This document shows, one piece after another, positions 37,104-52,925 of a stretch of DNA of 64,000 nucleotides. The notes beneath the pieces are model-generated. The model had not been told where the DNA came from. It saw only the letters and a list, made by a program, of their open reading frames with translations, and did no database searches. The stretch spans positions 1 to 64,000 of the forward strand of contig JAEHOE010000131.1 of the NCBI GenBank assembly GCA_016858145.1. The letters are read 5' to 3'. The position numbers and the translations under genes are program-made. The stretch comes from Edaphochlamys debaryana. Its lineage: Eukaryota > Chlorophyta > Chlorophyceae > Chlamydomonadales. Within the stretch, counting starts at the first letter, position 1. Each line of letters starts with the position of its first letter.

Positions 37104-38765
37104 GATGTCCGCGCTGCACCCGCCGTGCCGAACGGCTGTGTTTCTGATGTAGCCGGCACCGCGTGCAGCGACGAAGGCTGGCGAAGTCTGGAGGGCGCTC
37201 CGACTCGTGCGCCTAAGGCACGACGTGGCACTTTTGCTCCCCGATCCACTAAGCAAAACGCCTTGATGGTGAGCACATCTGTCGTGACCGGATAGCCCCT
37301 ATAAATGCAAAGTTTCGCCCACCGTACGGCGAAGAACATGCGCTTCACACAAAGTAGCCTTCTCTCCGTAGAGTTTGGTGTCGACTTCATATACATTCAG
37401 GGATGCTTTTGTGTGGCGAACGCGTTTCAGAGCTGTCGTGTTTTGCTTGCACTTGCGCTGCACTTCAGCCCTACTGTGTAAGACGCTAGACGACTTGATG
37501 CAGACGTCGATGCATCAACAGTATCTCTGACCTGGTGCACACCGTACGCCTTTCGCAATGCGGCGGAAATGGCGCTGATTGCGCGCTGACGGCGCTGGAG
37601 TCGGCGAATGCAACAGTTACGAGGGCACGATGTGAAGGGACAAGTGTGCATCATCGTGGTTCTGTCGATACCTCAGTCGACGCGAAGACTCCGTGTGTGC
37701 CGTACAACCCGGGAGCCCCGAAGGAGGAGGTGCGCGGTCCCGCGGGTGGCAACTTCCAGAAAGAATGTACGGGAAACAAGGAGGAGGTGCGGGAGTAGAG
37801 CACTGACCACGGAAGCCTCGGGGCCACACACACGAGCCTCGGACGCACGTGAACCAGGGGTCGGTCCCACGGGTGTAAAGCAAAGCGCTATGCAGCGCAG
37901 AGCACGATGGCACGCTTGGCTCCGGACCGCCAGTCACCTCGCGGCCGTGGCAAAGCAGGAGATAAGAGTGAGGTGTGCAAGCAGCCTAGCGTGCTCGCAT
38001 GTTACTGTATGGGTCTTGAGCGGTTATTGGCGACAGCTCTCTGGCTCTGTCAGCTCTCCGGCGGCTCGCAAGCGGGCCCGCCCTGTGCAAACCACACGTA
38101 TACAAACCTGTGGTCCCAGGGGTAGACAAGAGTGGCTGCCAGAAGGCAGGAAAAGGGCTGAGCCCCGTGGTCCCCCCCAGGGGGCCCAATGTTCGAGTCT
38201 GGCTCCGTGCAGCCCTCAACCCCTCTCCACCACCAGCCCGCACCACGGCACGCGGGCTCGCACCCGGCCATTAATCCGTTGGAACCTCGCACTACACGAG
38301 GTGCGCTCGTCAGGCGTCTACTCGCCTCGGCCTGGACATAGCCCTATAGGGCGTGAAAGGAGAGCAGAACGATGTGGTGGAGCAGTAGAGTCTGTGAGCA
38401 GGTAGAGTCTGCGGTCCCGCTATTAGGGAGATAATATGTTTGCCATCGCCAAGACCTGAACTTAGACGATGGACCATCCGGCAAGTGCAAAGTGTTGCAA
38501 CTACCGCACCAACAACGGATACGAGATGCATGAGGCGCTTTAACAATACTGCGCTCAGGTTGGGCACAAGCGAGAAGGTTGAGCTCCCAGACATTTCACC
38601 GGCATGTTGGAGCGTGGTCGATACATTTCCCTGCTCTCAGTCGCAAGCGATACGGATAAGATAGCTCGAGCTTGTGGCATCGAGGGCTGGTAGGGGCAGA
38701 AAACATCAACGAAGCGAGGCGCTTGGTTGTGGCGTAGGGCGTGTGGTCCCAGGGGTGGACGGAAG
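37104..38765. other. 5' flank of the inverted LysM gene; no gene recognised
   Basis: This should contain the promoter of the gene starting at 37103 on the minus strand. Frames here are short and unlike any family. The string GTGGTCCCAGGGGT with similar flanks occurs at about 38108-38121 and again at about 38741-38754, so a small direct repeat lies here; the second copy is next to the retrotransposon insertion point. Confidence 0.4.
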
Positions 38766-38769
38766 TGGG
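38766..38769. repeat. Candidate target-site duplication (TGGG), left
   Basis: TGGG directly precedes the TGACAG start of the element and recurs directly after its CTGACA end at 52922-52925. Four bases is usual for DDE-integrase retroelements, but the local sequence is G-rich, so chance is possible. Confidence 0.5.
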
Positions 38770-39224
38770 TGACAGAGCACAGTACCGTCGCTGTCACAGG
38801 ATGGTTGCCGGTTGGGAATTGAGGTAGGATGCTGGAGGTTTGTGGCCGGTCTGCTAGTTTGTGCTGGAGGGTACGTCTAGGGTCGTGACTAGGGTTGTGA
38901 CACCAGGGTTTGCCTCCTGGGACACGTGGCATGCGCACCTGAGGTACGGCAATGAGCCCTTCCAATCGGGGGGACTTAGGCGAACGCCCAGCTTCCGACT
39001 AGCAAGTCGGAAGCACTGCTGCTGATACTACTACTTGCTGCGGATCTACTCTGCTGTGACTGTAACTACTAGAGTGTTGCTGCTCTGCTGCCTCTAGCGC
39101 CTGCGGCGCAGTCTCTGTGCCATCCGACGACTTCCCGAGGAGCCTTCGCTCGACCCAGCTGCTGAGCCTCGGCACTGGTCCTAGAAGTGAGCCCAGGCAC
39201 CGCCTGCGTCTTTGCTCGCCGATT
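38770..39224 (+). repeat. Terminal repeat A1 (455 bp)
   Basis: Identical by eye to 52417-52871. It starts TGACAGAGC and ends GCTCGCCGATT. It contains a perfect 10-bp inverted repeat with a four-base loop (38991-39000 and 39005-39014) and a TGTAA at 39061-39065 that could serve as a polyadenylation signal. Unlike A2, it is not followed by the 50-bp B sequence. Confidence 0.95.
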
Positions 39225-40402
39225 TGCTTCCGACTTTTCTTCGTCCGCTGGCGCCGCGCGCTACGGACTCCCAGACTCGATCGCTCCGGGCTCCGCCCGC
39301 GCGGCGATCTGGCTTCCAAGGAGTCTTCTAGGAAGTCTAAGCAACAGACTGCGTCTGGTGCTGATAGGCGTGGGCCCGCGGCCGCGCCTCTGCCGATTCC
39401 TCAGCTCACGCCTGTGTCCACGACCGCGAGTCGAGCTGCAGCGCGCAAGCTCCGTAGACAAGAAGAGCAGGAGGCTAATCTCCCGATCGATCGTTTGGCT
39501 GCCCTGCTGAACGCCCGAAACGCAGGTACTCCCATACGCTCGGCACCTGCAAGCCCAACTCGCGGACGAGGCCTCGCTGATCCACGGGCGGCTACAACTG
39601 CTCTTCGCGGCAACCCGCTATTTGAGCAAGACCCCACCGGCTCCGCCGGTGCTGGGCCGTCGAACTCCGGAGGCTCCGGTGAGCCTCAACATCGTCGCGC
39701 GCCTTCGGCTGACCTCGCGACCGAGCCAACCCGCAACGACGTTGCAGGTCCTTCTGGCTCCAACTCCGGTGGCAGCGCTGCTGGAGCGTCTTCGGGGCCG
39801 GGCCCCGCCCGCGTTCCCTCTCCACCAGCCCCGCAGCCCTCAGCTGCGGGGGCTCTACCTGCACTCGCCGAGGAGCTCGGGCAACACCTGCCGGCACCGC
39901 CTGACGCGCCTGGTGAGCAGCAAGATCTCGGCCCGGGCCCCGCCCCGGCCGATCAAGCACAGCCTCCCCAGCCTGCGGCTGCAGGGGCTCTAGACTTAGC
40001 ACCTGCTGAGGAGGGCGACGGGGAGCAACCTCCTCCCGCCCCGGCGCTGCCTGCGCCGGCACCTGCTGCCCAGCTAGCTCCCCGGGCTCCGCCCAGGTGG
40101 AGTGAAGACGAAGACATGGGCGACCGCAACTGCCCCAGCTTCGATGCTAAGCCAACTTCCCTTCCCGCCTTCCTGCAGTCCGCTCGCCTGTTCGTCAAGC
40201 AGTGGGCCATGAGCGACCGGGGCGACAACAAGGCCCTGATAGCCGAGCTCATCCTCGCCGGCATGGCCGGTGGGCTCACCAAGGATGGGGGCAACAACCT
40301 CAACCTGGTCGTGCAAGGCTGGTGTGCGACCGAGGGCGCCGAGGCCCTGACTGAGCACAAGGACAAGTGGACCCTGCTCCACGCCGGCGTCGCCAATCCC
40401 CC
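39117..40402 (+). CDS. Gag, N-terminal frame segment
   Basis: An open frame runs from inside A1 into Gag-like sequence. It has no ATG until 40115, so the real start is unclear: 40115 (reading MGDRNCPSFD) or an upstream non-AUG start. Before 40115 the frame is rich in Ala, Pro, Ser and Arg. After it comes a helical, charged stretch (for example LPAFLQSARLFVKQW) typical of the start of a capsid domain. The frame continues as meaningless sequence past the C run at 40398-40402, where the capsid reading moves to another frame. Confidence 0.65.
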
Positions 40403-43400
40403 GAGTACAAGGGCCAGGCCAAGCTCCCTGACCTCAAGCTCGACGCCTGCGAGTACCTGCTGGAGGCCCTGGCCAAGAAGTTCGGCCGCGAGGACCCCAC
40501 GTCCAAGAAGAGCTACGACAACTTTGGCGTCGAGCCCCTCGAGGACCCCATGACGGCGGGCGCCCGCTTCCTCTCCATCGTCAGGCCCATCAGCGAGGCC
40601 AGCATCTCGAGGCGCGTCCGCACCGAGCGCTGGCTCCGGGCCGTCATGGAGTCGCACTGGGTCAAGGCCAGCTTCATGAATGACACCATCAAGGTCAGCT
40701 ACCTGGGCAAGGAGGACAGCGACCCCACTGCCTGGGACCTCGCCAAGGCCATCGTCCGCTGCCACGAGATCTACAGTGCCTTCCGGGTCGAGCAGGAGGC
40801 CGCCGACAGCAAGGTCAAGGACCCCAAGAAGGTCAAGGCGTTCGCCACGTCTGCTGGCCCCGTCTCCGAGAGCACCAGCGCCCCCGGCGTGGGCTCGGCC
40901 GACATTGCCCGCCTCTCATCGCAGATCGAGCGCATGGCCAGCAGCGTCTCGGCTCTGGCCACGCACTCCGGTCGCCAGGACCACGGCAAGGGCTATGGCG
41001 GCCAGGCGGGCGGGCGCCAGCAGCAGCAGCAGTCGAGCGGCGGCAACAAGCCCCGCTGGCCCAAGGCGGAGCCCGGCCCCGCTACCGGCTCCACGGGCGA
41101 CTGCTCCTTCTGCAACGCCAAGCACCACTCGGTGGACTTCTGCACGGCCAACGCCAAGGCCGGCAACCTGACCGCGCTGCCCGGCCACCCCAAGTCCATC
41201 AACATGGACAACGCCTGGGCGGAGCTAGTCCACAAGAAGCCGGAGTACGCGGCGCTGCTCTCGTCGCCGCGCCAGCAGCAGCCGCAGGGCGACCGCCCCC
41301 GCAGGCAGGACTATGCTAAGCCCAAGGACAACAACCGAGGCAAGGGCAACCCGCAGCACGCGGTCTACGCTGCTGAGGCCTCGCCGTACCTGCAGTCCCA
41401 GGCCCCGCCTGCGGTGCTGCACTACGGCCAGGGTCCCGCGTCCCACGGCTACGGCTACGGCTACTCCACGCCGCCGCCCTCGTCGTACGGCCACAGCTAC
41501 GGCTACGGCCAGGGCCCTCAGGCTCCGCCTGCAGGTGCCTTCGCGTCCTCGGCCTCCTTCCGGGCCCCGGCGGCCCCGCCGCCCGGTGTGCCGCCGCCAC
41601 CGTCCTGGCCCATGGGCTACGGAGCTCCGCCTTTCTCGCACCCACCGCCATCCTCGTACGCGCCGAGCTCGGAGTCCGCTCTGCACACGGACGTTCTCTC
41701 GGTGGCCCAGCACCCGTACAACAGTACGTTCGTCACGTACGTGGAGTACGGCACCCCCGGCGCAGCCCTGGCCACGTCGGCTTCGGTCTCCCAGCTGGGG
41801 GGGGGTATGAGCGCGTGCAACAGCGTCGGCAGCTTTGCCAGCAAGGAGACCGGCCCCGCCGTGTCCCCGACTGGGCCGCCAACGCCAATCCAGGGCCAGA
41901 CCGTGTGGCCACCGCAGGCCTCCTCGGCCGCGGCCTTCAACACCACCAAGGAGCCCATGCCGGCCAGCTTCCGGCAGCTGCCCCCCGGGCCGCTGCCCAG
42001 CTCCATGCGCCTGCCGCCCGTGGAGCAGGTCTCCTTCTCGCACATGAAGGACGGCAGCTCTAACGTCCGCTTCGGCCCCATGGCGCCGGGCAAGACGGCG
42101 GCGGCGCTCGAGATCCTGGGCAAGATGATGGCCGAGCTGCTGGATCTGCTCAAGACCCCCGAGGTGGCGCCCGAGGCCTCCGCCCTCGCCTGCTCATCCA
42201 CGGCCGCCACCGCCGGCTCCAAGATGGAGGAGATCAAGCAGTACCTGAAGAGCGAGCTCGCCAGCTCCCTTCACTACGTCAACAACAGCGACCCCAAGCG
42301 CGGCGCTGGCCTGCTCAAGGCCGATGGCACCCTGATCTTCCCTCCCGGCATCGGGCCAGACACCATGTGCAACACGGTGGGTCTGATGGTCCAGAGCTTG
42401 TACGAAAACCTTGGCGTCAAGCTGGAGCCCTGTAACCCCGGCGTCAAGTCCCTGCGCCAGAGCAGCCAACCCCTCGGCATCGCCCGTGTATGGAACGTCA
42501 TCACGCCTGGCACCGCGTCCGAGCTGCGCGTCTGCGGGGACTTCCTGGTCGTCCCCGACGACTGGGCGGCCGGCCTCTTCACCATGCTGTGGGGCGGGCC
42601 GCTCTTCCACCAGTGCGGCATGCTGTACGACTACTACCCGCGCCCACACCTCCGCTTCCGCTCCGGGCTGCACCAGGGCGACGAGACCATCAACGGCCAC
42701 GTGGCGCTGGTTCCGGCCCCGCCGGAGCTGGAGAAGGTGGCAGCCTCGCTCCGCGCCTGCTACGCCACGGCCCTGCTGCCCTCTGAGCCCTCGCCACCCC
42801 CGGTGGACAAGGCCGAGGCCCGGCCCAAGACCGTCTCCGTGCACATCCCCACCGTACGGTTCGATCCCAGCGACTGCGCTCGCCCGCTGGCGTCTGCGCT
42901 GGGGCTGAGCGACCGCCGCATCCGCATATGGGACTGGAGCCCCGCGGACGGCGCCAGCGTGGCCTTCGCCACCAGCCTCGACACTGCGGAGGAGCTGGTC
43001 GAGGAGGAGATGCTCGTGTACGAGGACGAGGAGCTGGCGGAGGCTGACGCGCGTGGGGAGCTGTCTGGGCCCCAACTCGAGGAGGTGGAGCCGCACCACA
43101 CCCAAGTGCCTACGTCCGCCGCCTCGGCTCCGCCGAAGGGGGGCCCCGAGATCCAGGCCCTGGCTACGCACGACCACCCACGGCGTCCCGCCTCATCCCG
43201 AGATGAAGGGCGTCAGTCCAGCCGCGGCCGCTCCCGCTCCCGCGACCGAGGTGCTGAGAGCCGAGGTCGTGACCACGAGCGCGAGCGTTCAGGCGACCGT
43301 CAAACCCGCCGCAGTGGCAGTGGTGGAGCTGGCGGCCGCCGACCTTCGGGCTCTCCGCAGAGGTCCCGCAGCCGATCCCCTGGGACGCCTGGACGGCTCT

Positions 43401-45562
43401 CAGGCTCACGCCGCTCCTGCACCCTCTGCAGCTGTCTGCGCGAGGCGACGAAGCTGCAGGCTTACCGAGATCTGGCCGTCTTCCCTGGTCACGAGAACTA
43501 CCGAGGTGCCGGCCCCCGGCTCGGCAACCCGCTGCGCTACCCACCTTGGTCGCGGCACAGCCAGGACTACTGCCTGCTGCACGCCTTGCTGGGCGGACCC
43601 ACGCTGCTGCGGTGGACCCCGGAGCTGCAGGACTCGCTCGGCAGCCTGGACATCAAGGGCTTCTTCCAGCCCATTAACGAGGTCGATCTGCAACCATGGC
43701 CTGAGGACCTGCCTGCGCTCCCCCTGGCCAAGGCGTACGACCGAGGTGACAAGCAGCTTCGCCGTGAGTGCCGGTGGACGGAGGAGGTGCTGGCGCGCAT
43801 GGGCCCCGACCTAGATCGCCCCAACGTCTCCGTCTACCGCCAGAGTGAGCGCCACATCCACTCCAGTACCCACTTCATCGGTGCTTACATCGACTGGTGC
43901 CGTAAGCTCCGGGACTGGCTCGCCTTCAAGGGGCAGACCATCGGCTGGCGGGAGCAGCGACCGCTCCCGGCACCTCAGCCTGCCCCACCACCGCCGCGCA
44001 AGGAGCGCAGCCGGCCCCCTGAGGTGCCCCCTGCCGCAGCCGCCGGGCCCTCGACCTCGGCAACGCCCCAGCACGACGCCGTGGCGGCGGGTCCCAGCGG
44101 CAGCGCCCAGGTGCGCAACCGAGAAGCGCTTGAGGCTGGCGCCCAGGCCCCGCCTGCGGTGCCTTCGCCCAAGCGCCAAGCGACCGCGAGCCCCGCGACT
44201 CGGGCTCCGCCCGCAGCTCCGGAGGTGGCAGCTTCGGCGGACCAAGGCCCGCGTCCCGCGGGGGCCGAGCTCGCCCCCAAGGCCCCGGTGCTGACTGCGG
44301 CTCTGGCGTCGCGGTACCCTTACCTGCCGCCACCGCTGCCTGCCCCAATAGTCCGCGATGCCCTCGTGCCTCCGCTACCGGCCGAGCAACCTGGTTCGGA
44401 CCCCCAAGCCCTGCCGGCCAGCCAGCAAGCCTACATGTGGCGCCGGGCTTCGGCCATCATGGTAGGAGACGTGATCTTTGGCGAGGGCTGCGCGGACACG
44501 TATCAGCGCTATACGGAACGCGAAGCCGCGGTCGCCCTGCCGAGGCCGCCGCCTCCCGTCTGCTTCCTGGCATCCGCCTGCTACCACGGGTCCTCACTCA
44601 CTGACGATGTCACGCCCATGGACCGTAACGACCTGTGCACCGGCCTGCTGTTTGGCGACAACGAGCGATCCCGGTGGGAGTCACAAGGCCTCCCCAAGAT
44701 CGAGATCACGTGCGCGGGGTTCGACATCACGTTGGCGTCGTACGGCGTCGACATGGGCCTCACCGGGGCATGCTGTCTCATGCGGCAAGACCTCTTCAAC
44801 GGCGTCCCCGTTGCCGTGCTGCAAGACACAGCGGTCACTACCGCTGGTCTCTACCACGAGGACGAGGTGATCAAGGTCTTCGGAGCGCGCGGTGTCAAGA
44901 AGTCGTGCTACTCCACCAAGCGCACGGCACGCGACGTACGCATCTTCATCAACGGCACCCTGGGACGCGACGGCGCCCCAGGTGAACCCGCAGCGATCAT
45001 GGTGCAAGTGCCCGTAGCACCCGTCCTGCCCGTGGAGGACCTACCCTACGGCATCGTGTTTGGGCGCCCATTCCTCTCCCTGCTGCGGGCAAACATCAGC
45101 GTCCGCACCTCAGGCGACGAGTACTGGCTGAGCTACCCCGTCGACGACACCGCCTCCTGGCGCACTCGGCTCTGGCTCTGCAACCGGTACACGGACAACG
45201 CCATCCGCTTCTGCGCCCTAGCGGCAGCCCCGGCTTCGAGCAGGGGGGGGGTAGAGTCCGAGCCCGAGTCCAAGCCCGAGCCCGAGTCCAAGCTCTCCTC
45301 GTCTGCAGAGCTGCTCGAGCCGGCCCCGCCGCTCGCGGCCAAGCCCGAGGTCTGCGCCAACGCCACCGCGCAGGACGAGCAACCCGCCTCCGCCAACGGT
45401 GACCCCGCTCCCGGCCCCGCCGGCGAACGGAGGAAGGAGGAGCTGCCCGACAGCAAGTGCAGTGCGACTCCGCGCCAGCTGCCCTTCTGGGTCAAGGCCA
45501 ACACCCCCGCCAAGCGCAGCATCAATGGGCCCGGCGCCGCCGGTCGCAGCCCGCTGCAGAGC
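40403..45562 (+). CDS. Gag C-terminal part, zinc knuckle and protease-like region
   Basis: This frame takes up the capsid reading right after the C run (EYKGQAKLPDLKLDACEYL) and stays open to the TGA at 45650-45652. A CX2CX4HX4C zinc knuckle lies at 41102-41143 (CSFCNAKHHSVDFC). Tyr/Gly/Pro-rich sequence follows at 41370-41700, then two basic or acidic low-complexity stretches. Around 44640-45130 is a retropepsin-like region: VDMGLTGACC near 44747 stands where a D-S/T-G active site would be, and YGIVFGRPFL near 45049 resembles the second conserved protease motif. The active-site middle residue is Met here. The reading passes to the pol frame near the C run at 45562-45565. Confidence 0.7.
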
Positions 45563-48500
45563 CCCTCGAGACTGGTGAGTCCTCGGCTCCCGGCACCGCC
45601 GGTACTGAGTCGCAGGCCAAGGGCGCCTGCTTCCTCCCCGGCTGCGGCCTGATTGACCATGACGTCTACGGCGTGTCCTTCGCTCGTGCCCTCCACCTGC
45701 TCTGCGATCTCGGTGCCCGCACTATTGCTTACGGCGCCACCACCTTCGGCATCTGGGTTCCCCTCCCGCACTGCCCCAGGGCCATCGCGCGCCTGATCGC
45801 GGCCAGCCCTGTCTACGGCCCCGTGCAGCCGTACGACACCTTCGGTGCCTACACCGCCGACACCGAGGACGAGGACTGGCACTCAACCAGCAGTGAGGAG
45901 GAGTCTGATGATGACGCGGAGCTAGACGAGCAGCTGGATGACTGGATGGAGCACGTCCAGTGGAGGCTGGGCTGCATGATCCTGCGCCGCGTCACGCGCA
46001 GCATCAACCGCAAGCTGGCCCGCCAAGCGAGGCGCGAGCTGCGCCGACAGGAGGAGCTGCGTGCGCAGGCCTTCGCTGCTATGGAGCTGGCGCGTCGCCG
46101 GTACCTGAGCCTGGTCAAGCGACAGTTCCTGCAGCAACGGGCGGAGCGCTGGGCGGCCGCGGCGGGCGCCAAGGTGTCCAAGCGCAAGTACGCACCGCCC
46201 GACGCCAACACCAAGTCGGCGACTCCGGCGCGCTGGCGCCTCAACAGCTACAAGACCTTCACCTTCGCCATCGTGATGCTGGTCTTCCTGGGCTGCTGGC
46301 GGCTGTCGGACGCGACGCCCAACTGCGTTCCGCATCCGGCTTACCCTCAGGGGGGGCAGTGGCTGGCTCCGAGCTGGGCGCAGCTGGAGCAGTCGCCCGC
46401 CACCACCCCGCTGGAGCAAGCCATGCGGCGCATCCAGCTGCGTGACCCGGCACCGCCGGCGAGGCGCTCACCATCCCAGGCCCCACCTGCGGGCTCGCCC
46501 TCGGCTGAGACACCTCTGGCAGAACCACCGAGCACCTTTGTCACGGGCACCGCACCTGCAAGCGCATCTAGTGTAGAGAGGCCTGCGGCTCCGCCGACAG
46601 AGCCGCCTGACGTAGCTGCACTTGGACCTTCTCCCGCCAATGTCACGACTCCTGATGGGGCTAGGGCACCGCCCGAAGACTCCACCTTAGTTAAGCAAGA
46701 AGCAGGCTACACTTTATGCATTCGACCTGATATGACTGAGGAGCAGCGCGATAGCCTCAAGACGCTGTTTTCCAAATATGACCACTTGTTTGCTAGGAGC
46801 CTCAAGGACATTGGTTGCTACCAAGGGGAGTTGGGGCCAGTGAGACTCAAACTCAAGCACAACAGCCCGATATTTGAAGCGCCGTGACGACATTCGGCTG
46901 CCGAGCGGTTGGTCGAGGATGCCAAGTGTCGCGAGCTGTACGGTGCCGACATTATCGAGCCGTCCAACTCCACGCAGTACGCGATGAATGTAACCCTGCC
47001 ACGTAAGAAGGGAATTGATGGTTCATACGAATCCAACGAGTACCGCTATTGTGCGGACGCGCGCCGTATAAATGCAGCGAGCGTGCGCGATTATTTCCGG
47101 CCGCCGGCGCCGGAAGACCTGTTCGATCGCATCCTGGGCGCGCGATTCATTACTAAGTGCGACTGCCGCGCTGCGTTCAACCAACTGCCGCTCGCCGAGG
47201 AGGATCGCGACAAGACCTCGTTCTGGTGGAACAACACCCTCTGGCGGTACAAACGGTTGATGTACGGCGCCGTCAACGCCACGGCAGCTTGGCAGCGAGT
47301 ACTTTCGCACCACGTGCGGAAGTACGGCCTGCAGGACTGCGTGTACCTGTTTGTCGACGACGCCGCAGTAACCGGCCATACGGCAGAGGAGCACGAGCAT
47401 AATCTCGCGCGGTTCCTCGCGATGTTGGACGAGATCAACATCAAGCTGCATCCTGACAAGACCGTGGTCGCGGCAGACAAGATAGAGTTCCTGGGCCACA
47501 TGGTGAGCGCTGACGGGCTCCGCCCGGTTCAGGCCAAGGTCGCTGCGATCCAAGCCATCCAGCCCCCTCGCTCGCTGACCGAGCTCCAAGCCCTGCTCGG
47601 CCTCTGCAACTACTATCGTTGTTACATCCCCCGCTTTGCCTGCATCGCCAACCCGCTCTACGAGCTCACCAAGAAGGGCGTCGCGTGGGGTCCCGAGACC
47701 TGGCAGCCGCGCCACCAGGAGGCCTTGGACCAGCTCAAGGCCGAGTTCTCGACCAACGACCGGCTGCTGCGCAAGCCTGATCCCAACCGTCAACTGATCC
47801 TGCACACTGACTTTTCCAATGTAGGCATCAGCGCCGTCCTAGGCCAACTGGATGACGAAGGGCACGAGTACATGGTCGCCTGCATCTCGCGCTCACTCAA
47901 CGTGCACGAGCGCAACTACACCTCCTACAAGGGTGAGATGCTGGCTGCCTGCTGGGCAATGAAGATGCTGCGCCCCTACCTGATAGGCCCACGCTTCATC
48001 CTGGTCACCGACCACGCGCCCCTGCTCTGGCTGATGGAGAACCAAAACCTAGTGGGGCAGTACGCTCGCTGGGCACTCTTGATGCAAGAGTACGACTTCG
48101 ATGTCGCCCATCGGCCAGGCCAGCTCCACTATAACGCTGACACCCTCAGCCGCTCACCTCTGCCCTCGAGCACTGATGGCTCCGGAGCCCGCATGGACGA
48201 GGACTCCGACGCCAAGCCGCCGCCACCTCGGCTCGTCCCGTATCCGACCGTCACGCCCTCGGCGCAACCCACGGCGCTCATGTCTGCAGTCCAAGTCCTG
48301 GCGCTGCGCGCTCGCGAGGAGTACTCCCTGCTGGCCACCGCCATGGGACAGGGCTCCGCCCTCGCTCCCTCTCCCGACGAGTGGCTCGCTGGCGGCAACG
48401 GCACAGCCTCTGACCCCGTCGAGCGCTTCGCCGACCCCGAGTGCACTGCGGCTCAGCTCCTGACCCGACAGGCCAACCTCACCGCCAACCGCGTCGTGCG

Positions 48501-51500
48501 CGAGGCCCGAGACGCCCTCCGGGCGACCTCGCTTTCGCCGCCGCGTCCCCGCCGAGTTGCCGAGGGCCGCACCACCGCCCTCGACACCAGCCTGCTCTCG
48601 CACCACTTCCTGGAGCACGCCCTCACGGAAGGGCTGGTAGTCGTGGAGTGCGGCACCTCCGCCGCCACGGGCCTCGAGGCCTGCCTCCGGGCGGGCTGGA
48701 CCGTGCGCCGTTATCACACCCTGGGCGCGCCCGCGCAAGAGCATTCGCTGCTGCGCCGCCGCCTGGGCTGGCTCCGTGCCTCCTTTCCCCGACAGCTTCG
48801 CGGCTCCGCCGTTGAAAGCCCCTGGGCCGCGCTGCCGCCCGGTCCGCTCACCAACGACCACCTCCTTGCTGCTTCCGCCAGGTCAGGGCAGCAGTGGTTG
48901 GTGCTCGGCAACCTAGACTCGACCCTGGCTCCGCCAGATAGAGTGCTAGAGCTCCTTGGCAGGCTCCAAGAGCTGCAACCCCGACTCCCGCCCGGCTTCC
49001 TGCTGGAGCGCGAGCCTCCAACGTCTGCGGACACGCCCTTCGGGACCTGCCTCACGCTGGACACCGCTGCCATGGGCAGGGCCCAGCACTCGCTGCGCGC
49101 CTTCTGCACCAACCTCGCGGCTCCCGAGCACCTGCGCAAGGTGGCAACATCTGGTGCCTGGAGCCCCAGTAACCTCTCGGCAGCTGCAGCGGCACCCTCG
49201 CGCCGCCTGCCCCTCTGCGAGGCACCCCTCAGCGAGCCCTACTCGGCCTGCGACGTGCCGGGTCGCCCCGTCACCGTCTTCCCGCCGGGCAACCTCGCCA
49301 CTATCCAGCTAGCCTCCACCGCCTCGGCCGTGCCTTCGCCGCTGCTGCCAGAGGAGATAGCCGCCCTGACCGACCTGGAGCCTGCTTCGCTGCTGGAGCG
49401 GCGCAACGACGGCACCCTCGCCGTGCCCTCCGCCATCGACGCCCTGCAGCAAGGTCTGCAGACTCCAGCTGCTGCACGCATCTTTCTCTGCGCACAAGCC
49501 CTTCAACGCGCTTTCGTCACCCCGCACCACATGGCTCGCATGCCACCGCAGCAGGCGCCACCGGCTGCCCCGCTGGGGGGGGGTAGGGAGATTGAAAACA
49601 ACACAGCGGCGCAGCCTGCAGCCCTGGTCACCACCGCGCTCCAGCACCACCAATCCAACGAGCACTGGACTTCTGCCCTGGTCTTGGCCGTCGCCGACGC
49701 ACAGGAGCCCCGCTACTGCGACCCTTGGGAGGACAAGCAACTGCTCCACTACCTCGCCCAGGGCACCTGCCCCGCCGGCATTGTCGGAGAAGCGGCTAGA
49801 CGGGTAGCGCGTCGTGCTATCAATTACCGTTTCGACGACCGGAGCAACCGCTTGTACCGCCGCATGCCCAACAGCACCATGCGGGAAGTACCTCCACCTG
49901 AGCGCCGCCAAGCCATCATCCAGGAGGCCCACCACCGCCTGGGGCACTGGGGAGCTCGCCGCACCCTGTGCCTGGTCCAGAACGGCTACTGGTGGCAAGG
50001 CATGTCCAGGGACGTTGAGTATGTGGTGCAGCGCTGCCCCCTGTGCGATCGCGCCAACACCGTTGGCAACGTCACTCCGCCCGAGCTGCACCCCCTGCCA
50101 ATCCGCGGGCCCTTCTTCCGCTGGCACGTGGACCTGGCTGGGCCTCTCACGCGCACGAGCTCCGGCTACGAGTACGTCATGGTCTGCGTCGAGGCTTGGA
50201 CCAAGCACGTGGAGATGATCCCGCTTCGCTCCAAGGGCTCTGAGGAGGTGGCCAACGCCTTCCTAGCCAACGTCCTAGCCCGCTTCTCGGCGCCCGCCGA
50301 GGTGGTGACCGATGGAGGCACCGAGTTCCAAGGCGCCTTTGCCGCCCTGCTCGAACAATGCTTCATCGACCATCGTCACACGTCGCCCAACCACCCGCAG
50401 GCCAACGGCGCTGCGGAAAGGGTCGTGCAGGTCTGCAAACGCTCTCTGCGCAAGTACTGCGCCCAGTACGCCTCCGCCGAACGCTGGGACGAGTACCTGC
50501 CCTGGGTCCTGATGGGCTACCGCTGCTCCCCTCAGAAGTCCACCGGCAAGTCCCCGTTTGAGCTCATGTACGGCGCACCGCCTGCTGTGCCCCTCGGCGC
50601 CGCTGAGCTGTGGGCAGAGGCGATCGACCCTGATGCCGATCCGCAACGGGCCGACCAACTCGTCATGCTGCGCTCGCACAACGTGCAACAGGCCGCGCCT
50701 TTCAACGGCCAGAACCTGCTGACGGCGCAGTGGCGAGACCGCCACAACTACGCCCGCGTGCGAGCTGGCGGCTACAAGCCCCGCTTCACCAAATTCAACG
50801 TAGGCAACTACGTCTACGTCATCCTGCGCAATCAGAACAACACGCTCCAACTGCCCGTCCACGACACCGTGCTCCGCATTGTGGCCGTGAGCCCAGAGGG
50901 AGTTGCCGAGCTGATGGGCCGCGACGGCACCATCCGCAAGGAGCACGTGAGCAACCTTGCCCCCTGCCACCTCCAAGACCTGGACCCAATCGTCGATCCT
51001 CGCATCGCGGTGCCGCCGCTGGACCTGCCCTGCAAGATCTGTGCCTTCCCAGGCGACGAGTCCAAGATGGTCATGTGCGACGGGTGCGGCACCGGCTGGC
51101 ACCTGTACTGCCTTCGACCTCCGCTCCAGCGCGTGCCCCGCGGCACCTGGACTTGCCCCGACTGCCATGCCCGCGGCGTGACACCGGCAACAATTGATCA
51201 GCTACCTGCCCCCGTACCGCGCGAGGCACCGCAGCCGCAGATCTTCCCCTCCGCTCAAGCGCACCGCCGGCTCAACGAGGCCAAGGCGCTGGAGGGCATC
51301 CCCTGCTCCCGCAAGGTCCGAGACCCCGCGACCAACACCTTCGTGAACCGTAGAGGCACCCTGCACTACAAGTCGGACGAGCCGCACTCTCGCCCCATTG
51401 AAGCGCGCTACACTGACGGCACCGCGGAGCGCCTGACTCTGCGAGCAGCCAAAGCATGCGCTCAACCGTCCACCACGGCCCTCGTCACGGCGGCTGGGGC

Positions 51501-52167
51501 CCCGCCCTTAGTCCTGCCCGACACCTGGGACCTGTCTTCGCCAAGCGCCCGAGCTGCTGCGCTGCTGCGGCTGCGCTCCGTGCCCGGGCTGGCCTCTAGC
51601 CTGCCTGAGTCCTTTCCCACGGGTACGCACCCTGCGCCTGCTGAGGATGCGCTCAACCTGCTTCTGGACCACCTGGACGCAAGCCGATCGCCCGTCATTC
51701 TGGACCCGTGCGCCGGCGACGAGACCCTGGCCAACGCGCTCCGCGCGAGAGGCTACTCCGTCTGCGCCAACGGGGGCCGGGCCACCGAGGCCCCGGGCTG
51801 GCCCCGCTTGGATCCCCTGCAACCTGGGACCTACCGCCGCCTCGCCACGCCCGGCGAGTCCTGGCTCATCATCTCGGCTCCGCACCCGGAGCTTCTGCCC
51901 TTCTGGCTGCCCCTGGCCATCGCCATGGTGCCGCTAGTCGTGGCCTTCATCCCACGGCGCATGCTTACGGCTCCGCCGGACGCATGGGCCGCCCTGCTCA
52001 ACACCTTCACGGAGGACGAGCGGCTGGCCATCATCACTGGGGACACCTGTGGATACGTCAACGGAAAGCCTGGAGCTTGGCTGTTAGTGTTCCGGGATGC
52101 GACCATGAGGGCGCAGCTGATGAGGGGTATCGGGAAGGGACGCGCTGGGCACTGGGTGCATGCGTAG
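45563..52167 (+). CDS. Pol: RT, RNase H, C5-MT-like, integrase, PHD, N6A-MT-like (one internal TGA)
   Basis: The frame is open to TAG at 52165-52167 except for one TGA at 46885-46887. Up to 46900 it has an acidic stretch, a basic coiled coil and one hydrophobic segment (TFAIVMLVFLGCW, about 46260-46300). RT follows, with YCADARRINA near 47044, KCDCRAAFNQLPL near 47155 and the catalytic YLFVDD at about 47344-47361. RNase H starts with ILHTDFS near 47797. Integrase has the HHCC zinc site (about 49930-50046) and a DDE core: Asp at 50131, Asp at 50311, Glu at 50416, the last two 34 residues apart. The GPY/F-like tail ends near 50960. A PHD finger (51031-51168) and an adenine-MT-like domain (51640-52110) complete it. 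Residues for RT, RNase H and integrase look intact. Confidence 0.85.
46885..46887 (+). other. In-frame TGA just before the RT domain
   Basis: The frame reads ...SPIFEAP, stop, RHSAAERLVEDAKC... Gypsy-type RT domains usually have an APRR-like motif here, so the stop stands where an Arg (CGA) is expected. C to T in a CpG would create it. The following base is C, a context that favours readthrough in other systems. Confidence 0.8.
48580..49240 (+). other. Cytosine-5-methyltransferase-like region, catalytic motifs missing
   Basis: Between RNase H and integrase the polyprotein has a block with the order of a C5-methyltransferase. At about 48631-48700 is GLVVVECGTSAATGLEACL, where motif I (D/G-rich loop then GLEA) belongs. 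QQWLVLGNLDST near 48886 stands where the catalytic Pro-Cys motif IV would be, but has no Pro-Cys. PGFLLEREPP at 48991-49020 resembles motif VI (LLENVP), keeping Glu but not Asn-Val. AQHSLRAFCTNL near 49081 resembles motif VIII. The similarity is judged by eye against remembered family patterns. If right, the domain is catalytically dead. Confidence 0.6.
51031..51168 (+). other. PHD finger in the pol C-terminal region
   Basis: Cys/His spacing fits a PHD zinc finger: CKIC, then CDGC, then HLYC, then CPDC, with the expected Trp two residues before the last pair (GTWTCPDC). PHD fingers read histone H3 tails. Its place after integrase is where chromoviruses carry a chromodomain. Confidence 0.85.
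51640..52110 (+). other. Adenine-methyltransferase-like region, altered catalytic motifs
   Basis: VILDPCAGDETLANALRARG at 51694 onward matches the SAM-binding motif I of phage-type N6-adenine methyltransferases, but Glu replaces the second Gly of the loop. SWLIISAPHP at about 51859-51888 stands where the catalytic (D/N/S)PP(Y/F) motif belongs and reads SAPH. Hydrophobic strands follow (LAIAMVPLVVAFIP) and the tail ends with AWLLVF, as expected of the fold. Judged by eye; a dead enzyme seems likely. Confidence 0.6.
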
Positions 52168-52355
52168 ATAGGGTGGTGAACCGAGGGAGATAAGTTCTGC
52201 TGGCTGTAGCCTGGTGAGGACACTTAGCGAGCATGGGGGAGGATTGAGGTTTTTCTGCCGGAGGGAACTGTTGTGTACAGCTTGAGCAAACTGCTTCTGG
52301 CTTAGCGTATGGCTTCGAGGCCGCCTGACTTCGCGTTTTTGGCTCTAGAGTCGCC

Positions 52356-52364
52356 AAGGGGGGG
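52356..52364 (+). promoter_or_regulatory. Polypurine tract
   Basis: AAGGGGGGG directly precedes repeat B1. In LTR elements such a tract primes plus-strand DNA synthesis and lies exactly before the 3' terminal repeat. Here it abuts B1, not A2, so B1 is part of the terminal structure. Confidence 0.65.
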
Positions 52365-52414
52365 AGTTCGGTCAGCCGGCTGCACTTTGCCGTAGCCCAT
52401 AGTGTGTCCTGACA
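52365..52414 (+). repeat. Split repeat B1 (50 bp)
   Basis: Identical to 52872-52921. It begins AGTTCGGTCAGCC and ends GTCCTGACA. Two bases (GC) separate it from A2, giving the junction CTGACAGCTGACAG, a tandem heptamer. Confidence 0.95.
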
Positions 52415-52416
52415 GC

Positions 52417-52871
52417 TGACAGAGCACAGTACCGTCGCTGTCACAGGATGGTTGCCGGTTGGGAATTGAGGTAGGATGCTGGAGGTTTGTGGCCGGTCTG
52501 CTAGTTTGTGCTGGAGGGTACGTCTAGGGTCGTGACTAGGGTTGTGACACCAGGGTTTGCCTCCTGGGACACGTGGCATGCGCACCTGAGGTACGGCAAT
52601 GAGCCCTTCCAATCGGGGGGACTTAGGCGAACGCCCAGCTTCCGACTAGCAAGTCGGAAGCACTGCTGCTGATACTACTACTTGCTGCGGATCTACTCTG
52701 CTGTGACTGTAACTACTAGAGTGTTGCTGCTCTGCTGCCTCTAGCGCCTGCGGCGCAGTCTCTGTGCCATCCGACGACTTCCCGAGGAGCCTTCGCTCGA
52801 CCCAGCTGCTGAGCCTCGGCACTGGTCCTAGAAGTGAGCCCAGGCACCGCCTGCGTCTTTGCTCGCCGATT
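52417..52871 (+). repeat. Terminal repeat A2 (455 bp)
   Basis: Same length and sequence as A1 by eye, including the 10-bp hairpin (52638-52647 and 52652-52661) and TGTAA at 52708-52712. It is bordered by B1 on the left and B2 on the right. Confidence 0.95.
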
Positions 52872-52921
52872 AGTTCGGTCAGCCGGCTGCACTTTGCCGT
52901 AGCCCATAGTGTGTCCTGACA
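52872..52921 (+). repeat. Split repeat B2 (50 bp), right end of element
   Basis: Second identical copy of the B sequence, directly after A2. It ends CTGACA, giving the element a TG...CA pair of ends with TGACAG at the left. Confidence 0.93.
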
Positions 52922-52925
52922 TGGG
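52922..52925. repeat. Candidate target-site duplication (TGGG), right
   Basis: TGGG directly follows B2 and matches 38766-38769. The predicted empty site would read GGAAGTGGGGTGGGGC. Confidence 0.5.

Follow-up and report, generated by a model that had tools for sequence, protein, structure and literature searches.

The question raised by this locus is how a retrotransposon with a retrovirus-type integrase can come to be bounded by split direct repeats. The window, meaning the whole stretch of DNA analysed here, comprises 64,000 nucleotides of the green alga Edaphochlamys debaryana (contig JAEHOE010000131.1, positions 1–64,000 of the forward strand). The element in question occupies 38770–52921 (14,152 bp) and has the order A1 ... 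B1-GC-A2-B2, where A and B are direct repeats. Ordinary Ty3/Gypsy members integrate from the ends defined by reverse transcription and have a whole long terminal repeat (LTR) at both ends. PAT elements have the exact order A1 ... B1-A2-B2, a circular intermediate and no target duplication. The initial annotation argued that an element with both a PAT/TOC-like order and a DDE integrase would have to replicate by an unusual route; our results support this idea, and the evidence at the A2/B2 joint points to joining of the ends of the complementary DNA (cDNA). We consider it likely that the element belongs to a Ty3/Gypsy-type family in which the ends of reverse transcription and the ends of integration lie at different places, such that the cDNA ends are joined and the integrase then acts at B-GC-A.

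Layout of the element family

Repeat comparison and reading of the flanks confirmed the terminal structure that the initial annotation had given for the window copy, including TG and CA ends, a TGGG duplication and a polypurine tract (PPT) abutting B1. A1 and A2 did not differ over 455 bp, nor did B1 and B2 over 50 bp, and the spacer between B1 and A2 was GC. We searched the genome (141.9 Mb, 502 contigs) with both ends of the element; only best matches were retained (40 of 143 candidates scored for the 3′ end, 40 of 122 for the 5′ end), and the counts are lower bounds. The 557-base B1-GC-A2-B2 query returned at least 41 rows, with 35 of 41 covering the entire query. The 5′ query returned at least 40 rows, and 40/40 began at base 1 of A1 and continued into the internal region; a broken match between A1 and the internal region would score lower in this search and could be missed. 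The initial annotation had proposed comparison with other copies, and those found mostly had A1 ... B1-GC-A2-B2 with the same GC spacer. We concluded that the split-repeat layout is real, fixed and common to the family, and is due neither to chance nor to a single copy. No relatives were found in viral_contigs.

Distinct ends were then counted. The loci collected gave 38 distinct 5′ ends that had a full A1 with the internal start within 4 nt, and B-GC preceded A1 in none of them (0/38). The PPT and the primer-binding site (PBS) bound B-GC-A, not A-B. That is, the family does not have a whole LTR at each end, and its integrated ends are not those defined by reverse transcription; its order is the A1 ... 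B1-A2-B2 of PAT-like elements. At the 3′ side, 43 distinct ends were counted, requiring B1 and A2 to lie no more than 6 nt apart with few changes, and the B1-A2 spacer was GC in 43/43.

Matching 4-bp flanks were found in 24 of the 28 layout copies with both flanks read; their sequences were of many different kinds, and about 0.1 matches were expected. These 4-bp duplications, with the TG...CA ends, agree with Ty3/Gypsy elements, for which the duplication is 4–6 bp. One of the 24 matches (C48, flanks TTCA) is interrupted by a copy of the second family described below. The four copies with non-matching flanks (C413, C457, C460 and C463) all lie on contigs of 16–22 kb. The flanks of C457, C460 and C463 are common to other contigs, which suggests that their mismatches reflect chimaeric assembly. 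Thirteen copies were compared for their A repeats, and in 8 of them A1 and A2 had 100% identity, so that many of the insertions are recent.

The layout was also found outside the immediate family. A subfamily represented by C24:42105-58222, treated here as one element with ends 16 kb apart, has termini about 72% identical to those of the window family; in this copy the PPT is followed by B1, GC, a 406-bp A and B2, and the element is flanked on either side by GGCC. In family 2 (C89 and others) the PPT is followed by a B of 50 bp, GC, an A of 401 bp and a second B. Both ends are listed for 12 family 2 copies, and the 4-bp flanks match in 8 of the 9 with both flanks read; the ninth, that at C48, is nested in B of the window family (family 1) and has imperfect flanks. 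A solitary A-B with the duplication AGGG was also present in family 2 (C108). A third family, family X, was read in pieces only; it has B-GC-A and A-B junctions with a perfect palindrome, CTGACAGCTGTCAG, and probably shares the split layout. One family X copy (L144; C15:50340-50920, minus strand) is a tandem of the form PPT-B-GC-A-short internal-PPT-B, and such a tandem was not noticed in the family 1 loci.

Putative self-priming and the start of reverse transcription

Directly after A1 lies a putative PBS, TGCTTCCGACTT, that is complementary at 12/12 positions to a segment within A1, AAGTCGGAAGCA, the putative self-primer. Complementarity of 12 was reached in 0 of 5000 shuffles of A. In the C24 subfamily, primer and site have altered in step, to TGACTCCGACTT and AAGTCGGAGTCA, and still pair at 12/12 positions. 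For family 2, the site TGCTCCCGTCTT was expected from its A and was then read after its A1, one base further on, with 12/12 complementarity; this expectation was recorded in writing only after the reading. A decayed copy, C34, had 11/12 complementarity with one mismatch, its site having been read at a joint instead of a 5′ end. The Tf1-type arrangement, in which the PBS is complementary to a segment of the element’s own 5′ repeat, thus occurs in the window family as well as in the C24 subfamily and family 2. In the Tf1 type, the primer is the 5′ end of the messenger RNA, freed by RNase H.

Copies of the PBS were also found beyond the end of A. The 12-base sequence TGCTTCCGACTT, or its C34 version, stands after A and before other sequence in C65, C24:1141k and C34; in C58 12–13 bases of it follow A, and in C119 10 bases. 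Such copies are expected if the primer was copied into plus-strand DNA.

A hairpin in A, consisting of an upstream arm, a short loop and the self-primer (window 38991–39015, with equivalents in L073, L121 and L123), shows compensating changes across families, and the sequence of its upstream arm is close to that of the PBS.

Variation at the A2/B2 joint

The A2/B2 boundary unites exactly the two ends that reverse transcription would define, namely the A end and the B start. In contrast to the GC spacer, this joint varied between copies: it was precise in 26/43 distinct ends and imprecise in 17/43 (Fisher p = 2e-6 against the spacer), or imprecise in 14/40 after removal of two inverted copies and the cross-family joint C58. 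Five ends had an added T, which is the first PBS base. Other changes were an added C, a changed base, the loss of 2 to ~22 nt of B, and the loss of A bases in one end. In two copies, C28:235k and C122, the A end and the B start are both intact but are separated, exactly at the joint, by a 337-bp inverted-repeat element in one case and by the first 217 bases of this element, at 92% identity, in the other, as though excised transposon DNA had been captured. Family 2 copy C3 had 57 nt exactly at the A2/B2 boundary.

Some joints linked different families or opposite orientations. In two cross-family joints, A with a PBS copy was joined to a B-like end of family X (C24:1141k) or to a family X A end (C58). 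Three inverted copies had the same 4 bp on both sides. The breaks lay exactly at the A end and B start in C2 (GGCT) and exactly at the A end in C15 (GACT), and both the A end and the B start were trimmed in C109 = C218 (CGGG), of which contig C445 also has one end. Added, trimmed and captured bases, together with the inversions, are what the end-joining of free ends typically gives, and a templated LTR would not be expected to contain them. We considered autointegration by the integrase as the origin of the inversions, but the inner breakpoint of C2 has a 9-nt loss and a 7-nt filler with no target duplication, so that end-joining fits better.

The 337-bp inverted-repeat element itself (TGTCGGTGCC...GGCACCGACA) was read at L081 386–722 and its 217-bp form at L076 440–656, with no visible target duplication.

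Coding regions and integrase

The initial annotation had described the DDE integrase as intact-looking, and its catalytic residues D1075, D1135 and E1170 (numbering of the 46909–52167 frame) are indeed present. In the pol open reading frame (ORF), Pfam placed RVT_1, RT_RNaseH and Integrase_H2C2 above cut-off and rve slightly below (32.0 versus 32.6). The resulting order of reverse transcriptase (RT), RNase H and integrase, with D, D and E all in place, is that of Ty3/Gypsy elements. The second D and the E (window 50131–50418) are 34 residues apart, a spacing also found in the 22 homologues, among 120 listed, that match a simple motif; the textbook spacing is 35 residues. By sequence, the nearest solved integrase was that of prototype foamy virus (PFV), which ranked above Ty3. 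Among 289 homologue matches, the 120 listed included proteins named from Tetrabaena, Gonium, Pleodorina, Astrephomene, Volvox, Chlamydomonas and Haematococcus. No Pfam match to a tyrosine recombinase was obtained in the four ORFs scanned.

The window copy has an interrupted reading frame: its gag-position ORF and its pol ORF differ in frame, and the frame of pol is closed right before the pol ORF by a stop at 46885–46887. In copies C3, C9 and C376, the integrase lies within open frames of 4,303–4,332 codons.

Between RNase H and integrase, window positions 48586–49848 gave 29% identity over 253 columns (E = 8e-14) to part of homologue P0013. The annotation of this homologue includes a C5 cytosine methyltransferase domain (PF00145), to which the matching part may correspond. 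Pfam gave no match on window 48400–49700. The stretch may be a decayed methyltransferase.

Proposed integration route

From the layout, the duplications, the constant GC, the variable A/B joint and the co-changing primer and site, all as read in the sequences, we infer the RNA ends, the circle, the cutting enzyme and the joining enzyme of the following cycle. The RNA would begin in A1 near the self-primer and finish in A2 past TGTAA. Pairing of the self-primer with the PBS would start the minus strand at the A end, and the plus strand would start past the PPT, at the B start. The product of reverse transcription would be a normal linear cDNA with 507-bp LTRs of the form B-GC-A. Host end-joining would then link the two cDNA ends and so create the A/B joint, most simply in a two-LTR circle. 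At a B-GC-A site that lies 50 bp away from this joint, the DDE integrase would cleave each strand of CA-GC-TG 3′ of CA. The ends so produced would be of the usual kind, with recessed CA and a 2-nt 5′ overhang, and GC would be lost. Insertion with a 4-bp duplication would yield A1 ... B1-GC-A2-B2. Consistent with this scheme, the integrated ends (TG of A1 and CA of B2) are the bases that flank GC in the inherited CA-GC-TG, and GC is absent at the integrated ends. Cleavage at CA-GC-TG by the integrase would be analogous to that by PFV integrase, discussed below. Taken together, the sequences suggest that joining of cDNA ends before integration is a regular and probably obligatory step. The self-primer, the joint-like nature of A2/B2 and the distinction between ends defined by reverse transcription and ends defined by integrase all go beyond the reading in the initial annotation.

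Several observations weigh against this route. A two-LTR circle would have two identical B-GC-A sites, and only one appears to be used: the permuted product A-B-GC-A-internal...B was found in 0/38 distinct 5′ ends (p = 4e-12 if use were equal). A positional preference of the integrase must therefore be assumed. The used site would be 50 bp from the joint and the unused one 455 bp away, and our guess is that an integrase assembled at the joined ends takes the nearer site. The GC count is partly selected by the spacing allowed between B1 and A2. A majority of joints are precise, and end-joining permits precision without requiring it. The two cross-family copies were counted without a reading of their outer flanking duplications, and the flanking pairs of C413 and of the family 2 copy at C48 lack a clean duplication and are not fully explained. 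Lastly, a plain model of priming by the 5′ end gives no role to the upstream hairpin arm, which is conserved.

Alternative explanations

Instead of a circle, the integrase might use two cDNAs linked head to tail as a concatemer, with cleavage in each unit at its left B-GC-A site. The layout alone fits circle and concatemer equally, and the joints C24:1141k and C58 do need joining between molecules. However, such cross-family joints make up 2/43 ends and joining within a molecule should be kinetically simpler, and we regard the concatemer as an unlikely substrate. A more conventional reading, and the alternative offered in the initial annotation, is that the true LTR is a 505-bp A+B that lost B at the 5′ end and gained B before A2 in the window copy. 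A-B does start with TG and end with CA, and the solitary A-B of family 2 resembles a solo LTR of this kind, but recombination between A1 and A2 would give the same product. This reading was refuted, and we give it virtually no chance: dozens of insertions with their own 4-bp duplications share the layout, as does a second family, and the best 40 of the 122 5′ matches run from A1 into the internal region without a break. Moreover, A2/B2 would then be an internal, templated position, yet it is imprecise in more than a third of the ends.

Given that the terminal order is that of PAT elements, PAT/TOC-like elements might provide in trans a tyrosine recombinase that integrates the family, while the family’s own DDE integrase stays idle. 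PAT-like elements are reported in every species compared by Craig et al., including E. debaryana (PMC8226300). This explanation is very improbable, however, since the 4-bp duplications in most copies fit a DDE enzyme, and the DIRS1 model yields none (PMC3266345); the DDE residues are kept, and no recombinase was detected in the ORFs scanned. A separate proposal concerns three copies with A1 and a B only (C195, C65 and C119), which could represent a second integration product, made from one-LTR circles. Their matching 4-bp flanks (TACC, ACGC and CGGG) agree with direct insertion, but later recombination between the 50-bp B repeats would yield the same structure with the duplications kept, and we hold the one-LTR-circle origin as a tentative suggestion, somewhat on the doubtful side.

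Features of the window copy

Coordinates are collected in Table 1. Immediately left of the element, a 35-bp repeat occurs at 38109–38143 and 38742–38776, its copies being 83% identical. The right copy extends 7 bases into A1, and the element therefore appears to have inserted in or beside repeated host sequence.

Table 1. Positions of features of the element in the window
Feature	Position	Strand	Remark
Target-site duplication TGGG, left	38766..38769	+	flank read
A1, 455 bp, starts TGACAG	38770..39224	+	host DNA before, internal sequence directly after
Upstream hairpin arm GCTTCCGACT, complementary to primer segment	38991..39000	+	changes in step with primer in C24 subfamily and family 2
Putative self-primer AAGTCGGAAGCA, inside A1	39004..39015	+	second copy in A2 at 52651–52662
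TGTAA inside A, which we take to be the usual volvocine poly(A) signal	39061..39065	+	position read
Putative primer-binding site TGCTTCCGACTT	39225..39236	+	directly after A1
Long gag-position ORF, 1761 aa	40367..45652	+	no Pfam hit
ORF, 476 aa, upstream of pol ORF	45457..46887	+	same frame as pol, ended by stop
pol ORF: RT, RNase H, integrase (H2C2 + rve), PHD finger	46909..52167	+	
Integrase: H2C2 aa 995–1051, rve aa 1070–1163, D1075/D1135/E1170	49891..50418	+	Pfam domains
PHD finger, aa 1375–1419	51031..51165	+	Pfam
Polypurine tract CCAAGGGGGGG, abuts B1	52354..52364	+	same position in C24 subfamily and family 2
B1, 50 bp	52365..52414	+	first part of the RT-defined LTR B-GC-A
CAGCTG = CA-GC-TG, putative integrase cleavage site, 3′ of CA on each strand	52413..52418	+	GC in 43/43 distinct ends; mechanism proposed from PFV
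A2, 455 bp	52417..52871	+	
A2/B2 joint, putative end-joining junction of PBS-defined and PPT-defined cDNA ends	52871..52872	+	precise in window copy
B2, 50 bp, last bases CTGACA	52872..52921	+	
Target-site duplication TGGG, right	52922..52925	+	flank read

Significance and comparison with known systems

Two-LTR circles were once proposed as the precursor of retroviral integration and are now generally regarded as by-products. If our interpretation is true, this would be, to our knowledge, the first retroelement with a retrovirus-type integrase that has the joined form as its obligatory precursor. The abstract of PMC5314604 says that two-LTR circles are viewed as a dead end. The present family, a natural one that has many recent copies, seems to rely on the joining of ends and keeps a record of it in the sequence of each insertion. 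The family could serve as a living system for studying how integrase cuts at palindromes and what part end-joining plays in retrotransposition, and it would show how termini of the PAT/DIRS type can arise with the integrase unchanged. We met no DDE-integrase element with split repeats in the literature searched, which comprised titles and the beginnings of abstracts, most subscription journals being outside coverage.

PAT, TOC and kangaroo elements, known from Chlamydomonas and Volvox, are likewise bounded by split direct repeats (PMC3266345). They use a tyrosine recombinase, whereas the window family has a DDE integrase and 4-bp duplications; no recombinase was found in its four ORFs scanned, and it does not show the lack of target duplication typical of PAT-like elements. 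Ty3/Gypsy elements, including REM1 of Chlamydomonas reinhardtii, share with it the RT-RNase H-integrase order and the PHD finger. The window family differs from ordinary Ty3/Gypsy elements in its split termini. In Tf1/sushi-type elements the PBS is complementary to a segment of the element’s own 5′ repeat (PMC4600332); the window family has the same self-complementary PBS, with 12 nt and a conserved upstream hairpin arm. We think it quite probable that a self-primed green-algal lineage of Ty3/Gypsy must first join its cDNA ends, in a two-LTR circle or a concatemer, that the site then used by its DDE integrase is an inherited internal palindrome, and that the PAT layout has arisen here convergently, without a tyrosine recombinase.

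The closest parallel for the proposed cleavage is PFV. In vitro, its integrase cleaves each strand of the LTR-LTR palindrome 3′ of CA, a reaction by which, as its authors proposed, two nucleotides are lost (PMC1180852). HIV-1 integrase also cuts its own palindrome, mostly with a four-base overhang (PMC1905944). The site in the window family matches that of PFV, a CA-2nt-TG palindrome cut after CA with a 2-nt 5′ overhang and two nucleotides lost, in that CA-GC-TG is present in all distinct 3′ ends counted and GC is missing from the integrated ends. The PFV palindrome coincides with the LTR-LTR joint, whereas that of the window family is inherited and lies 50 bp inside the LTR, with the joint elsewhere. 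The proposed step thus resembles the cleavage of the two-LTR palindrome shown in vitro for a spumavirus, and in the window family it is apparently obligatory.

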